From a virus: DNA of 37,509 nt. This document shows positions 31,617 to 37,509 of this stretch, in pieces. The first letter of the stretch is position 1, and the number at the start of each line of letters is the position of its first letter. The notes under the pieces are model-generated. The model was not told the origin of the DNA and did not search any database. It saw nothing but the letters and a program-made list of their open reading frames with translations. Location: IMG/VR virus record IMGVR_UViG_3300025000_000249, positions 1-37,509 of that record, one strand, 5' to 3'. The translations under genes and the position numbers were made by a program.

Positions 31617-33467
31617 GTGGAAAGATTAAAACAAATACCAATTGATCAAATAGTAATTGATGAAGCTAACCCGCGCGGTGCGGTTGATGTTAACTCTCCG
31701 GATTTTTTTGAACTTGCAAAATCAATTACAATTCACGGAATACTGCAGCCGATATCGGTGCGCAAGTTTGAAGATAAGTACAAAATAATCTTCGGCGAAA
31801 GAAGATACAGGGCGGCACTTTATTCCAACCTTGAAGAAATGCCGTGTATAATTAGGCAGCTTGATGATAACGCCGTTTTGGAAATACAACTGATTGAAAA
31901 CTTACAGCGCAAAGGAATACACCCGCTTAAAGAGGCGGAAGGTTTTAAGAAGCTGTTGGATACCGGCAAGTACGATGCCGGGCTGGTGGCGGCAAAGCTT
32001 GGGAAGAATCTGAATTACGTTTATCAACGTATCAAACTAAACGATCTTATTGAGGAAGCAAAAACCGCTTTACTTGAAAACAAAATATTTCTCGGTCATG
32101 CGCTTATACTTGCGCGGCATGCCGAAGTGCAGCAGAAACCTTTATTAAAATTTTTAATGAACACATACAACGGCTCACAAAAATCCATTACCGAACTTAA
32201 GGAACATATAGAAAGCAACTATATGCTTGCGCTGCAAAATGTTCCTTGGAGCCTTAAAGACAAAAATTTAACCAAAGCCGGAAGCTGTGTTGACTGCCCG
32301 AAAAGAACCGGGTATAACGAACATCTGTTTCCGGAATACGCTGAGGATGACAGGTGCACCGATAAGGCTTGTTTCAGCGATAAATTAACGGCGTTCATTT
32401 ATTTCCAGATAGAAAATTACCGGGAGAAAGGCGAAGAACTTTATCTGCTGAAAAGTTATTCCTTTAATAAAGCTTTACCCCAGTTTGAGAAAAACACTCT
32501 TAGTGAGCACACTGATTTTGAAGTCTACGACACCGGCATACACAAGCCGTATAAAAAGCTGAAGAAAAAAGGCATATACGTTGACGCGAACCAAAAAGCC
32601 GGACAAATAGTTGATATAATTCTCAACAAAGATCTGCCTGAGGTTATAGTCAGTGATATTGTTGATAATGAATTTTTTCCGGATGCATGGGAAAAACTTA
32701 CTGAAGAAAAAAAGAAAGTAGACGAATACTTTACCCCAATTGATGAAGCGGCTGCCGTTGAAATTTACAACACGGCAATTACTGAGGTTGAAGAATTTGA
32801 GAATAATGAACTTGCTATAGTTGCCTCTGTTTTCATTCTCGATAACTACGTAACCATCAACACAGAAACAATGAAGGAACAAATCATAGACGCCTTTGAA
32901 CTAAACATAACGCTTGATGATGTAAATAAAAAATCAAGTCAATGGTTCGGCATCTGGTATCCCGAATTAATTAAACTAACCCGTGTACAGCTTACACAGA
33001 TCATTGTAAGAGTGCTTTTGTTATCACAAGCCGAAGATGATGAGTACTATTTCATAGTATCAAAACTCGGCGTTGATGTTAACAACATCAAAAGTAAATA
33101 CATCTCCGGCGCGCTTGAATTGGGCAGAATTAACATAGGCGCTTCAATTGTATCAGGATACGAGGACGCTAAAGACGGTGTTTGTATTGAGATAATTTTC
33201 ACGCGGGATTTTGTTGATTTGTTTTCCACAACTATGAAACTGCAATTACCTTATAAAGAGGATGAAGATGCCGAAGAAAACATTGACAGAAATTACACCT
33301 TACCTAAAACACGTACGCTTAAGCTTGCCGTACTTAACGCTCTTGATACTTTAAACGATGATTTGGACGGCATAGATTTTAACGAGGCTTTCATACCGGA
33401 GGAAGTAATAACTGCGATTAATCACATCAAAAAAGAAACAGACAAAATTTTAGAACAATACTGCTAA
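31617..33467 (+). CDS. Large ParB-like nuclease/CTPase-fold protein, no ParA beside it
   Basis: 616 aa from GTG 31617 (AGAGG 7 nt upstream). Residues 1-100 hold the ParB N-terminal domain: IPIDQIVIDEANPR, HGILQPISVRK, the CTP-binding GERRYRAA (60-67) and LIENLQRKGIHPLKEAEGF (93-110). An HTH (LVAAKLGKNLNYVYQRIKLN) follows at about 123-142. A cysteine cluster (CVDCPKRTG...CTDKACF) lies at about 220-250. The long C-terminal part is acidic and unassigned. ParB proteins slide on DNA around parS. Without a ParA gene this one may act in replication control or gene regulation beside the initiator. Much longer than ordinary ParB (about 300 aa). Confidence 0.85.
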   Translation: MERLKQIPIDQIVIDEANPRGAVDVNSPDFFELAKSITIHGILQPISVRKFEDKYKIIFGERRYRAALYSNLEEMPCIIRQLDDNAVLEIQLIENLQRKGIHPLKEAEGFKKLLDTGKYDAGLVAAKLGKNLNYVYQRIKLNDLIEEAKTALLENKIFLGHALILARHAEVQQKPLLKFLMNTYNGSQKSITELKEHIESNYMLALQNVPWSLKDKNLTKAGSCVDCPKRTGYNEHLFPEYAEDDRCTDKACFSDKLTAFIYFQIENYREKGEELYLLKSYSFNKALPQFEKNTLSEHTDFEVYDTGIHKPYKKLKKKGIYVDANQKAGQIVDIILNKDLPEVIVSDIVDNEFFPDAWEKLTEEKKKVDEYFTPIDEAAAVEIYNTAITEVEEFENNELAIVASVFILDNYVTINTETMKEQIIDAFELNITLDDVNKKSSQWFGIWYPELIKLTRVQLTQIIVRVLLLSQAEDDEYYFIVSKLGVDVNNIKSKYISGALELGRINIGASIVSGYEDAKDGVCIEIIFTRDFVDLFSTTMKLQLPYKEDEDAEENIDRNYTLPKTRTLKLAVLNALDTLNDDLDGIDFNEAFIPEEVITAINHIKKETDKILEQYC

Positions 33468-33488: not shown

Positions 33489-34433
33489 TTGAACGATAGC
33501 ACAATTTTTAATAATGATTTAGCCGGGAAAGTGGGAATCGAAAAAGCGATTTTGCTGCAGAGAATATTTTATTTTGTTGAACATAACAAAAATACAAATC
33601 AAAATTTCCACGACGGCAAGTATTGGTTTTATGATACCGCAAAAGCTTTTCTTGAAAAGTTTCTTTTTTTCAAATCTGTTAAGTCTGTTTACAGATGGAT
33701 GAAGCAGCTTGAAACCGACGGTTGGATTTTGACCGGCAACTATAATGAGGACGCGAACGATACAACAAAGTGGTACACTTACGGACCTACTATGTTGGAA
33801 TATCTAAAGAAAACCGCCTCTCAAAATGAGAGTCTGGAAAAAGAAAAACACGAAAACGAATCAAAAATTGATTCTCAAAAATTGGAGTCCAAACAAGAAA
33901 GCGTAAAAAACACGCTGAAAATTGATTCTCAAAATGAGAGCTCGGACTACCCAAAAACGGGAGTCGGACTACCCAAAAGTGGGAGTCGGAGTGCTACTTT
34001 TGAGAATCCTTTTAAAAAGGCTTTAAAGACACAGGATAGACACAGAAGAGACACACCAGGCGCGCGCGGGAAACATTTTGAATTAGTTCCGGAACAGTCT
34101 CAAAGAAATGCAATTGCTGAGGATGACGGGTTCCGAAGTGAAACGTTTAAACTTTTTTTAGAGGAATATCCCAAAAAGGAAAAGGAATACACCGCATGGC
34201 TGGAGTGGCTGAACCAAGGGATTGACACTAAGCCGTACATCCAAACAAAAATATTTGAATCGCTGCAAGCGTTTAAGCTTTGTGAAGAATGGGGGAAAGA
34301 AACAGGCAGATATATACCCTTTGCACATAATTGGCTGAGAGACCGGCGGTACAATGAGTTTCCGGAGGCTGCAGATAAGCAGCGCAGCGTAGTTGAGGAA
34401 CATCAAACAAAACGGATAGGGGTAGAGGCATGA
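33489..34433 (+). CDS. Replication initiator (lambda O-like plan) with origin repeats inside the gene
   Basis: 314 aa from TTG 33489. Residues 1 to about 105 form a winged-helix DNA-binding domain typical of phage replication organisers (VGIEKAILLQRIFYFVEHNK, DTAKAFLEKF, SVKSVYRWMKQLETDGWILT). About 108-185 is a low-complexity S/K/E/N-rich linker that is encoded by the iteron cluster. About 195-300 is a C-terminal helical domain (FKLFLEEYPKKEKEYTAWLE; FAHNWLRDRRYNEFPE) likely to contact the helicase. The same organisation, initiator N-domain, ori repeats in the linker and helicase-binding C-domain, is known for lambda O. It is followed by a DnaB-family helicase. Confidence 0.82.
   Translation: MNDSTIFNNDLAGKVGIEKAILLQRIFYFVEHNKNTNQNFHDGKYWFYDTAKAFLEKFLFFKSVKSVYRWMKQLETDGWILTGNYNEDANDTTKWYTYGPTMLEYLKKTASQNESLEKEKHENESKIDSQKLESKQESVKNTLKIDSQNESSDYPKTGVGLPKSGSRSATFENPFKKALKTQDRHRRDTPGARGKHFELVPEQSQRNAIAEDDGFRSETFKLFLEEYPKKEKEYTAWLEWLNQGIDTKPYIQTKIFESLQAFKLCEEWGKETGRYIPFAHNWLRDRRYNEFPEAADKQRSVVEEHQTKRIGVEA
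33818..34008. other. Putative replication origin: iteron cluster inside the initiator gene
   Basis: Class A sites: CTCTCAAAATGAGAG (33818-33832), TTCTCAAAAATTGGAG (33872-33887) and TTCTCAAAATGAGAG (33926-33940), exactly 54 bp apart. A reverse copy (TACTTTTGAGAATC) lies at 33995-34008. Class B sites: GACTACCC-AAAAAC-GGGAGTC (33945) and GACTACCC-AAAAGT-GGGAGTC (33967), exactly 22 bp apart. All are imperfect inverted repeats around an A-rich centre, like lambda O-binding iterons. An A/T-rich stretch (CTTTTAAAAAGGCTTTAAAG) follows at 34009-34028. Confidence 0.72.
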
Positions 34434-34702
34434 ACACAATCGAATCGAATATAAAAAAAACATTTAATGAGCGAAGAAAAACTAAAGAAAAAAAAGGAAC
34501 TCAAAAAATTGAAGTACAAAATTACATGATTCCACGCGGAGCAAAGCTTGTTGAATGTTATTTAACTGCAACTGAGGTATTAGTTATTGATGATATTGAT
34601 ACAGAAGACGAAACCCATAACTGCGATATGTTGGGCTGTGGAAGTTTATCACATGTCAAATATAGATTTAATCTAAAAGATAGTTATCAAAACAAAATTT
34701 AA
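34430..34702 (+). CDS. Hypothetical protein between initiator and helicase
   Basis: 90 aa, ATGA overlap with the initiator stop. The N-terminal 30 residues are basic and helical (NIKKTFNERRKTKEKKGTQK). The rest holds CYLTATEVLVIDDIDTEDET and a Cys pair (NCDMLGCGSLSHVKY). No family recognised. Its position suggests a replication accessory role, not proven. Confidence 0.5.
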   Translation: MNTIESNIKKTFNERRKTKEKKGTQKIEVQNYMIPRGAKLVECYLTATEVLVIDDIDTEDETHNCDMLGCGSLSHVKYRFNLKDSYQNKI

Positions 34703-34706
34703 TAAC

Positions 34707-36098
34707 ATGACCAAATCTAAAATACCGCCAAACGCTGTTGAAGTTGAAGCCTCTGTGCTCGGCGCCATGATGCTTGAACCCGAAGCGGTGCCGAAAGGAA
34801 TGGAACTGTTAAAGCCGGAACATTTTTACAGCAATAAAAACAGATCTGTATTTGAAGCGATGTGTTTATTGTTCAGAGCTAATCTGCCGGTAGATACTGT
34901 TACTGTTTACCAAGAATTAAAAAAGTCACCTAAAAATGATGTACAAGAATTAGCGGTGTATATAAGCGAGCTTGCGCAGAATATTTCATCTGCCGCGAAC
35001 ATTGAATATCACTCAATGATAATTATTGATAAATGGATACTGCGACAGTTGATAAATTTTTCCGTGCAGACAATTGAAAAATGTTACGCCGAAGAAGATG
35101 CCGTTGAATTGGTTGAAGCGGCAAAAGCAAAAATAAATCACATCACGGATAAAATTAATTTTATGGAACCGGAAAAAAATCTCGGCGATGAGCTGAAAAA
35201 GATTTATGAAGATTTGCAACACGAACAAACAGACGGCAGCAGGCTGGCTTATAAGACAACTAATTTTTCATCGTTCAACATTGCAACCGGCGGTATATTA
35301 CCAGGTGAGATGGTTGTAATCTCCGGTCAACCTAAAGGTGGGAAAACAACTACAGGTTTATCAATCATGTTGGATTTCTTTAAAACCTATGGCGAACCAA
35401 CCGCGTTGTTTACTTATGAAATGCCGTTCATTCAATACGCGAAAAAGAATTTATCTCTTGCAACCGGGACCCGTTACGACTACTTAAGAAACCCTGGTAT
35501 GAAAAATAACGCCGGAGAATTGCATTACGACAAAAGGAAAATGATAACAACATTTGATAAAGCTGTTGGATTGTTTGAAGGTAAAAAGTTTTTTATTGTC
35601 GACGAAGTTTTAAACGAACAGCAGTTAGCATCAAAGATAAGATACTTAAACCGCAAGCATGATGTTAAAACCATAATGATTGATTACATCTCGTTGATTG
35701 AGGTAGTACAGAAACGCGAACGCAGAGACCTTGACATCGCTGAAATATCGCGCATGTTGAAGCGCCTAACTAATGAGTTGAAACTGCGAATGATTATTCT
35801 CTCACAAGAAAACAAAGAAGGTAAAACTGCAGAGAGCACGGCGCTTGAAAAAGATTGCGACTTTTGGTTCTCGGTTTCGAAGCCTATTAATGAAGGCAAA
35901 GAAAGAATAAAGATAGGGTCACAAGAATTGAAAGTTGACGGCGGTTTGTTTGTAATTGATTATAAGAACAGCCGTCATAGCGGCAGCGGCGGAAGGTTTA
36001 TTACATACTATATGAAGAATGGAGAATACAAAGAAATTGATCCCGAGAGATACGAGCCAAACATCGGGGAACGCGAACAGGAAGATTTGCCGATATGA
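34707..36098 (+). CDS. Replicative DNA helicase, DnaB family
   Basis: 463 aa. The N-terminal domain has the DnaB opening (PPNAVEVEASVLGAMMLEPE) and HFYSNKNRSVFEAM. The RecA-like C-domain begins TTNFSSFNIATGGILPGEMV, followed by Walker A GQPKGGKTT (about residues 208-216), the ALFTYEMP motif (DnaB H1a-like), Walker B TIMIDYISLIE and the LSQENKEGKTAES sensor region. Such helicases are loaded at phage origins by the initiator or a loader and drive replication. No separate loader is seen, so the initiator probably recruits it directly. Confidence 0.93.
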   Translation: MTKSKIPPNAVEVEASVLGAMMLEPEAVPKGMELLKPEHFYSNKNRSVFEAMCLLFRANLPVDTVTVYQELKKSPKNDVQELAVYISELAQNISSAANIEYHSMIIIDKWILRQLINFSVQTIEKCYAEEDAVELVEAAKAKINHITDKINFMEPEKNLGDELKKIYEDLQHEQTDGSRLAYKTTNFSSFNIATGGILPGEMVVISGQPKGGKTTTGLSIMLDFFKTYGEPTALFTYEMPFIQYAKKNLSLATGTRYDYLRNPGMKNNAGELHYDKRKMITTFDKAVGLFEGKKFFIVDEVLNEQQLASKIRYLNRKHDVKTIMIDYISLIEVVQKRERRDLDIAEISRMLKRLTNELKLRMIILSQENKEGKTAESTALEKDCDFWFSVSKPINEGKERIKIGSQELKVDGGLFVIDYKNSRHSGSGGRFITYYMKNGEYKEIDPERYEPNIGEREQEDLPI

Positions 36099-36490: not shown

Positions 36491-36741
36491 GTGAATGGGT
36501 AAAGTGCATATTAAAAATGCCTAACGGCGAGAGACTGCTTGCGCATCATTGTAAGAAGCAAGGTAATGTTATTTATGCATCGTTCGGTACGTTCACACTA
36601 AACCTTAATAAAGAATGGGTGTGGGTGATTAACAAAGATGTGAAGTTGGAGATAGTTGACAACAACTTTACAACCAAGGATTTGAAGAAGTTAAAGAGAA
36701 CAGGAACAAATAACTTTTACTATGTAGGCGGTCATGATTAA
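36487..36741 (+). CDS. Hypothetical protein
   Basis: 84 aa. Beta-rich, with MPNGERLLAHHCKKQGNVIY, then ASFGTFTLNLNKEWVWVINK and a short basic C-terminus. Overlaps both neighbours (ATGA upstream, 8 nt downstream). Not recognised; the overlaps place it in the operon that runs from replication into packaging. Confidence 0.5.
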   Translation: MSEWVKCILKMPNGERLLAHHCKKQGNVIYASFGTFTLNLNKEWVWVINKDVKLEIVDNNFTTKDLKKLKRTGTNNFYYVGGHD

Positions 36742-37456
36742 TATAAAAGTTAATAATATAAAAAAGGTTGTGGAGTCTCTTAATAAATTAAATAAGCACT
36801 CTCAATTTACTATGGCTGTAGCTATCAACCGGACTCTTTGGGATATGCAGCAGGAAGAGAAGAAAGAGATATCGAAAGTATTTAAAAATCCAACTGCATT
36901 TACAAAAAAGAAAAGTGTTGTTTACAACAAAGCTAAATATCCAGAAAAAATGACAGGAGAATTGAAACTCTTAGACTTTTTAGGAAAGGGTATGCCCCCC
37001 GATGATTATCTTACTCCGCAAATTTTAGGAGGCGAACGTAAGGTTAAGCGTTCGGAGTTTTGGTTGAGAGACAAGGGCTATTTACCATCAAACAAGTTTA
37101 TTGCACCTGCGCCGGGGTTAACATTAAATCAATTTGGAAATGTTACACAAGGAAAGATGACGCAGATATTGTCAGGCTTAAGCGCTTTCAATAGCGCTGG
37201 GTTTGACGCTAACATCACAGCAGCATCTAAGAAAAGAAATCCAACCCGTGCAACCTTTTTTGTACCAAAACAACCAAGCGCATTGCCTTCAGGTATTTGG
37301 CAAAGGAATAAATCTGGGAATATTAAACCATTGTTCTGGTTTGTTTCAAAACCAAACTATAAGAAACGTTTTGATTTTGTTAAAGTTGGAATGCTAACTC
37401 ACAAGAAAGTATTTGAAAAACATTATAATAAAGCATTTTCTGAAGGTTTTAAATAA
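36734..37456 (+). CDS. gpZ-like phage structural protein, encoded upstream of terminase
   Basis: 240 aa. It belongs to a widespread phage family with the recognisable series AINRTLWDMQQEEKKEISKV, YLTPQILGGERKVKRSEFWL, LPSNKFIAPAPGLTLNQFGN, VTQGKMTQILSGLSAFNS and FFVPKQPSALPSGIWQR, then FVSKPNYKKRFDFVKVG. The A-x-N-R-T start and the Y-K-x-R-F ending resemble lambda gpZ, needed for tail function, and members are often annotated as minor tail Z or as hypothetical. In lambda Z lies between FII and U, where this genome has none. Here it precedes the small terminase gene. Confidence 0.7.
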   Translation: MINIKVNNIKKVVESLNKLNKHSQFTMAVAINRTLWDMQQEEKKEISKVFKNPTAFTKKKSVVYNKAKYPEKMTGELKLLDFLGKGMPPDDYLTPQILGGERKVKRSEFWLRDKGYLPSNKFIAPAPGLTLNQFGNVTQGKMTQILSGLSAFNSAGFDANITAASKKRNPTRATFFVPKQPSALPSGIWQRNKSGNIKPLFWFVSKPNYKKRFDFVKVGMLTHKKVFEKHYNKAFSEGFK

Positions 37457-37509
37457 TTATGAAATTAAATGGGTCCTTTCTCAGAAAGGGGGTGCGGATA
37501 CATTCGAAC
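37413..37509 (+). CDS. Probable 5' part of the terminase small subunit gene (continues at base 1)
   Basis: The frame is open from 37398 to the window end and, when 37509 is joined to base 1, runs without a stop into the terminase gene ending at 428. The joined translation NNYEIKWVLSQKGGADTFEH, then IADLQKQIDEERKG looks like one protein. TTG 37413 would give 174 aa, close to lambda Nu1 (181 aa). The ATG at 37459 is in another frame. The start is uncertain; a base error in the G5 run at 37488-37492 could also put that ATG in frame. Confidence 0.5.
   Translation, partial: MKNIIIKHFLKVLNNYEIKWVLSQKGGADTFE

Follow-up and report, generated by a model that had tools for sequence, protein, structure and literature searches.

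The replication initiator gene of the virus record IMGVR_UViG_3300025000_000249 contains, in the DNA that encodes the linker between its N-terminal and C-terminal domains, an array of short imperfect palindromes (iterons). We consider it very probable that this array is the replication origin of the phage, embedded in its own initiator gene; the N-domain of the encoded protein would bind the iterons and a helicase would be loaded close to the opened duplex. The array has been selected as DNA rather than as protein, which is well supported by repeats that disregard the reading frame, and arrays with a 22 bp period occupy the same position in most members of a large family of related initiators. 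The record was analysed over its full length of 37 509 nucleotides (the window) and comprises lambda-type packaging and portal genes together with a replication block. It is close to complete and its two ends connect, since the stretches that match the window end (36734–37499) and the window start (102–2199) lie side by side in the close relative L002. The terminases nearest to that of the window in a phage collection share less than 60% identity with it.

The replication block begins with a ParB-like protein of 616 amino acids (31617–33467), directly upstream of the initiator gene (33489–34433, plus strand, TTG start, 314 amino acids). A DnaB-like replicative helicase with both N and C domains (34707–36098, plus strand; Pfam DnaB_C 1e-27 and DnaB 2e-25) is encoded 270 bp downstream of the initiator and is presumed to be the helicase that it recruits. 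The intervening 90-residue open reading frame (34430–34702) is without a convincing family match and could encode a small helicase-loading or accessory protein. The initiator belongs to the PHROG 'replication initiation protein' family phrog_11233 (E value of 1.2e-25 over residues 4–167), with further matches to phrog_6493 (1e-16) and to the O-like phrog_678 (3.4e-6). Searches of Pfam and NCBIfam gave no match to the protein and a sequence-based profile search of solved structures gave chance matches only.

The N-terminal domain (residues 1–110; 33489–33818, plus strand) is predicted by AlphaFold2 to be a winged helix–turn–helix with a pLDDT of 94.7. In the predicted model, the helix at the recognition position comprises residues 64–76 and the wing extends over approximately residues 80–98, with strands at 80–83 and 94–98. 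Five residues (Gly16, Gly43, Tyr45, Trp46 and Thr93) are invariant in an alignment of 78 sequences. The closest folds include the N-terminal domain of pSK41 RepA (PDB entries 4pql, Z = 8.3, 4.3 Å, 99 residues, and 4pt7, Z = 8.2) and that of DnaD (2v79, Z = 7.4); the resemblance to RepA_N is at a level common to winged-helix proteins, as many regulators, MarR-type proteins among them, score between 7 and 8. The C-terminal domain (34101–34433, plus strand) shows weak matches to phrog_1347 and phrog_10293 over residues 217–296 and is presumed to be the part that recruits the helicase or primosome.

Six sites in the linker-coding DNA are variants of a single imperfect inverted repeat of about 20 bp, GAYT(A)CYC–A-tract–GRGAGTC. 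Nearly all of the left halves and most of the right halves read GAYT(A)CYC or deviate from it by one or two bases. Two sites are outlying: A1 (33818–33834, plus strand, CTCTCAAAATGAGAGTC), the left half of which is eroded in L002, and A2 (33870–33889, plus strand, GATTCTCAAAAATTGGAGTC), which combines an A-type left half with a B-type right half and belongs to both repeat families D1 and D2; in D2, its segment CAAAAATTGGAGTC shares 86% identity with CAAAAACGGGAGTC of B1. The dense part of the array starts with A3 (33924–33943, plus strand, GATTCTCAAAATGAGAGCTC), which is in register with A1 and A2 at 54 bp intervals, and continues with B1 (33945–33965, plus strand, GACTACCCAAAAACGGGAGTC), B2 (33967–33987, plus strand, GACTACCCAAAAGTGGGAGTC) and C (33989–34008), in which the same motif is reversed so that the minus strand reads GATTCTCAAAAGTAGCACTC. 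The centres of A3, B1, B2 and C (33933.5, 33955, 33977 and 33998.5) form one array with steps of 21.5–22 bp, the last step, from B2 to C, being 21.5 bp. Palindrome scoring that demands symmetry about the centre with no spacer proved too rigid for these sites, the A-tract core of which is unpaired. The repeats listed in the preliminary description of this DNA, namely the A sites 54 bp apart, the B sites 22 bp apart and a reverse copy at the right end, are all present. Two further repeats lie close by: a perfect inverted repeat, GAATCAAaaaTTGATTC, at 33858–33874 overlaps A2 and likewise has a GATTC half-site, and three 11 bp direct repeats (AGACACAGGAT, AGACACAGAAG and AGACACACCAG) at 34027–34059, just downstream of the array, are unchanged in L002 (identical run 34020–34069) and possibly belong to the origin.

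Low-complexity linkers are common, and the repeats could in principle reflect nothing but such a linker, with in-frame peptide repeats and no function of the DNA. The 54 bp periodicity of the A sites taken alone could be of this kind, because 54 bp correspond to 18 codons and the peptides SQNES and KIDSQ recur. The 22 bp period cannot be explained in the same way, because it is not a multiple of three and the reading frame changes from one repeat to the next. B1 and B2 are 91% identical at an offset of exactly 22 bp but encode DYPKTGV and GLPKSGS, respectively; thus, nearly identical DNA is translated in two different frames, and C is likewise out of frame. The array is not reproduced when the linker is re-coded with synonymous codons: the half-site GAYT(A)CYC occurs eight times in the 175 bp of 33834–34008, whereas re-coded linkers contain 1.2 on average and four at most, and eight was reached in none of 5000 trials. 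The best out-of-frame repeat of the linker was equalled in one of 2000 re-codings. In the whole 37.5 kb the half-site is found 16 times against an expectation of 11.4, so that only eight occurrences fall outside the array. For the 22 bp array the peptide explanation is already refuted, and for the repeats as a whole we regard it as scarcely credible.

The initiator of L002 (6001–6945) is 92% identical to that of the window, with 62 of the 945 bases of the gene differing. A block of 67 bp extending from B1 to C (33942–34008, plus strand) is identical in the two, with substitutions immediately on either side that resume at 34009, while 23 of the 136 bases of the linker upstream of it differ. At the substitution rate of the linker and C-domain (9.8%), an unbroken run of 67 bases would be expected at a given place with a probability of about 0.001. 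As a sign of constraint on the DNA, this block on its own is only suggestive, because unbroken runs of similar length occur in the conserved N-domain and C-domain code; moreover, it comes from one close relative in which the amino acids of the block are also conserved. The third site has changed in L002 from GATTCTCAAAATGAGAGCTC to GATTCTCAAAAATTGGAGTC, an exact copy of A2; the amino acids are therefore altered and the iteron is retained. The replacement looks as if iterons had been homogenised by recombination.

Related loci were collected by profile searches with the N-domain, which gave the best 80 of 363 viral loci and 49 loci from cellular genomes, together with more members in phages and plasmids. 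Family statistics were compiled for 96 distinct (non-redundant) relatives. Most of the loci have a repetitive linker after the N-domain, which ends near the motif DRTKWYT. With a repeat defined as at least 12 of 14 identical positions, the linkers of the 96 members contain 320 repeats compared with 92 under synonymous re-coding. Spacing peaks most strongly at 22 bp (80 versus 7.5 expected) and secondly at 44 bp (39 versus 4.2), and the window conforms to this 22 bp feature with its centres 21.5–22 bp apart. Out-of-frame repeats number 163 in the 70-codon linkers compared with 16.9 expected, some ten times expectation, which is a further argument against a linker-only origin of the repeats; the flanking domains show no such excess (six versus 4.9 expected in the N-domain and one versus 3.3 in the C-domain). 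Taken singly, 69 of the 96 members surpass every one of their 20 synonymous controls, against a chance expectation of 4.6 members. The half-site itself varies from member to member, but the layout, with inverted halves flanking an A-tract, is kept, as in TTGCTCAAAATGAGCAA (L019), TTGTGCAAAATTGCACAA (L003) and TTGGACAAAAACGACCAA (L025). Relatives that preserve the amino acids of the linker and lose the repeat bases had been named beforehand as the pattern that would speak against an origin; the opposite is seen, with bases and spacing kept and amino acids varying. A search of the open PMC subset found no description of linker iterons in phrog_11233-type initiators, a weak negative since subscription papers were outside its scope.

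In Lactobacillus phage phiLdb, a member of this family, replication initiation proteins are annotated for three consecutive open reading frames (1486–1800, 1838–2128 and 2156–2986), the first of which consists of the N-domain only and stops right after it; this may mean that the initiator is split or duplicated there. A conjugative plasmid of Streptococcus agalactiae encodes the same N-domain family, annotated as DUF6017, with a GGGCAAAATGCAC-type array (locus L008, 1468–2505), and similar loci occur in several streptococcal and Haemophilus-type genomes. This suggests that elements of this type likewise carry an origin that is read by the initiator encoded around it.

The protein that reads the iterons is likely to be the initiator itself, through its N-domain. 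The more alike two N-domains are, the more alike are their iterons (Mantel r = 0.33, none of 2000 permutations, 48 members, kinship ignored). When co-variation with the rest of the domain is controlled for, the best ten-residue windows are 65–74 and 64–73, followed by windows in 87–99. The partial correlation of residues 63–72 with iteron similarity is modest at 0.20 and, with kinship ignored, was matched in one of 2000 permutations, or in six of 2000 for a stricter iteron set. These peaks coincide with the predicted recognition helix and wing, the elements that are expected to touch DNA, and it is this tracking of iteron sequence by the predicted helix and wing that points to the N-domain as the reader. 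Together with the frame-independent repeats and the family-wide 22 bp array, the co-variation bears out the earlier proposal of a lambda-O-like iteron origin in the linker-coding DNA of the initiator.

The preliminary description had also proposed two interleaved classes of site, serving either two proteins (the initiator and the ParB-like protein) or two dimer registers. The B sites do have an extra A in their left half (21 rather than 20 bp), and the upstream A sites are spaced by 54 bp and not by 22 bp. The half-site is nevertheless common to all sites, A2 combines one half of each type, the four right-hand sites A3, B1, B2 and C share one 22 bp register and, in L002, the third A site has been replaced by a copy of A2. 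In addition, the iterons of a given array vary in a similar way in the relatives. A gene for a ParB-like protein lies beside the initiator in L002 only; in the other 95 of the 96 loci, most of which have arrays, none was found in the flanks examined (mostly 3 kb, some ending at contig ends). On these grounds (the hybrid A2, the shared register and the missing ParB-like gene) the two-class, two-protein proposal was dropped, and we judge its chances to be very remote. The same observations bear on the possibility that the array is not an origin but either an autoregulatory operator or a partition site, bound inside the gene by the initiator or by ParB. The ParB-like gene directly upstream fits this, and arrays bound by initiators often repress transcription as well. 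However, the array lies inside a coding region rather than at a promoter, no parS-like site (16 bp consensus, up to three mismatches) was found in the window, the iterons co-vary with the recognition helix of the initiator itself and most of the relatives have arrays with no ParB-like gene in the flanks examined. An operator or partition site is thus highly unlikely, and the array is best regarded as an origin read by the initiator.

Where the duplex would open is less clearly marked. The A-rich stretch between the outlying iterons, upstream of the dense array (33835–33923, plus strand; 55% A and 69% AT), is an unproven candidate for an unwinding or bending region; it is not unusual for this genome, and the DNA downstream of the array is 50% AT. 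Nothing in the duplex-stability profile stands out as an opening element at the array. We assigned no opening site, because the 40 bp of lowest stability in the initiator gene lie in the N-domain code (33563). Across the family, AT content rises by 5–6 points just past the array, at 90–150 nucleotides past the N-domain. Cumulative GC skew, put forward earlier as a check on the replication start, follows gene orientation only and has no turning point at the array. We propose that the winged-helix N-domain, probably as a dimer, would bind each ∼20 bp imperfect palindrome. The dense row of A3, B1, B2 and C, spaced by two helical turns, and the two upstream outlying sites, spaced by 54 bp (about five turns), may then be drawn into a bent nucleoprotein complex; the duplex would open near the array and the C-terminal domain would recruit the DnaB-like helicase encoded by the phage.

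The layout is known from phage lambda, in which the iterons of ori-lambda lie inside gene O, between the parts that encode the DNA-binding and C-terminal domains, as in the window. Four to six O-bound iterons are flanked there by an AT-rich region (PMC7466680). The annotated lambda iterons inside gene O (ATCCCTCAAAACGAGGGA and variants) have centres 20, 24 and 23 bp apart and are of the same form, with inverted halves converging on CAAAA at 20–24 bp spacing, compared with an A-tract and a spacing of about two turns in the window. Lambda O and the window initiator share a remote match to phrog_678 (1.7e-35 and 3.4e-6, respectively) but have no direct sequence match. The systems differ in that the least stable, AT-rich opening stretch of lambda directly follows the last iteron, while none is evident at the window array. 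They also differ in helicase supply: lambda uses its loader P and the host DnaB, whereas the phage of the window encodes its own DnaB-like helicase.

Plasmid initiators of the RepA_N type offer a second parallel. In pSK41, the middle of rep contains four Rep boxes that are bound by a Rep N-domain of about 120 residues; the origin doubles as the linker-coding sequence, and a separate C-terminal domain is able to bind DnaG (PMC5703833). In RepA_N plasmids, each iteron is a semi-palindrome that converges on a poly-A tract (PMC7145576). As in the window, the origin lies inside its own gene at the linker position, and the window N-domain resembles 4pql and 4pt7 in fold, at a level shared by many winged-helix regulators. 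The Pfam family RepA_N (PF06970) matches neither the window protein nor its 77 relatives (78 N-domains scanned), so that the protein is not RepA_N by sequence. In pPR9, a phage-like helix–turn–helix N-domain (pfam13730) and its origin have replaced the N-domain and origin of pSK41 as one cassette of ∼500 bp (PMC5703833). HTH_36, which is PF13730, is matched by five of the 78 relatives; pPR9-type hybrids differ in belonging to a staphylococcal plasmid and are likened to the window family by description. Also close are the phrog_11233 and phrog_6493 initiators of Bacteroides, Flavobacterium, Listeria, Lactobacillus and Vibrio phages and of the DUF6017 plasmids, which have the same N-domain family and mostly the same 22 bp linker arrays, but differ in the sequence of the iteron half-site and in their C-terminal domains. 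From these sequence comparisons, the window initiator is placed in the phrog_11233 family and would work in the manner of the embedded origins of lambda O and pSK41, with a remote link to lambda O.

Taken alone, the window site would be nothing unusual among embedded origins; the family-wide co-variation of iterons and N-domains is the more useful part. It may be, and we hold the chances to be even, that the members form a large family of self-targeting cassettes, of which Pfam covers hardly any, in which a winged-helix domain and the iteron array that it reads directly downstream in the same gene co-evolve via the recognition helix and wing, with C-terminal domains traded among the phages and plasmids found in several phyla. 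If so, the origins of hundreds of uncultured phages, together with a recognition code, would be readable from sequence alone. The origin of a family member could be located by looking, immediately behind the DRTKWYT motif that closes the N-domain, for an out-of-frame array of inverted repeats with a 22 bp period, and the residues that set specificity could be predicted from co-variation, which would be of use for finding origins in uncultured phages and for judging replicon compatibility.
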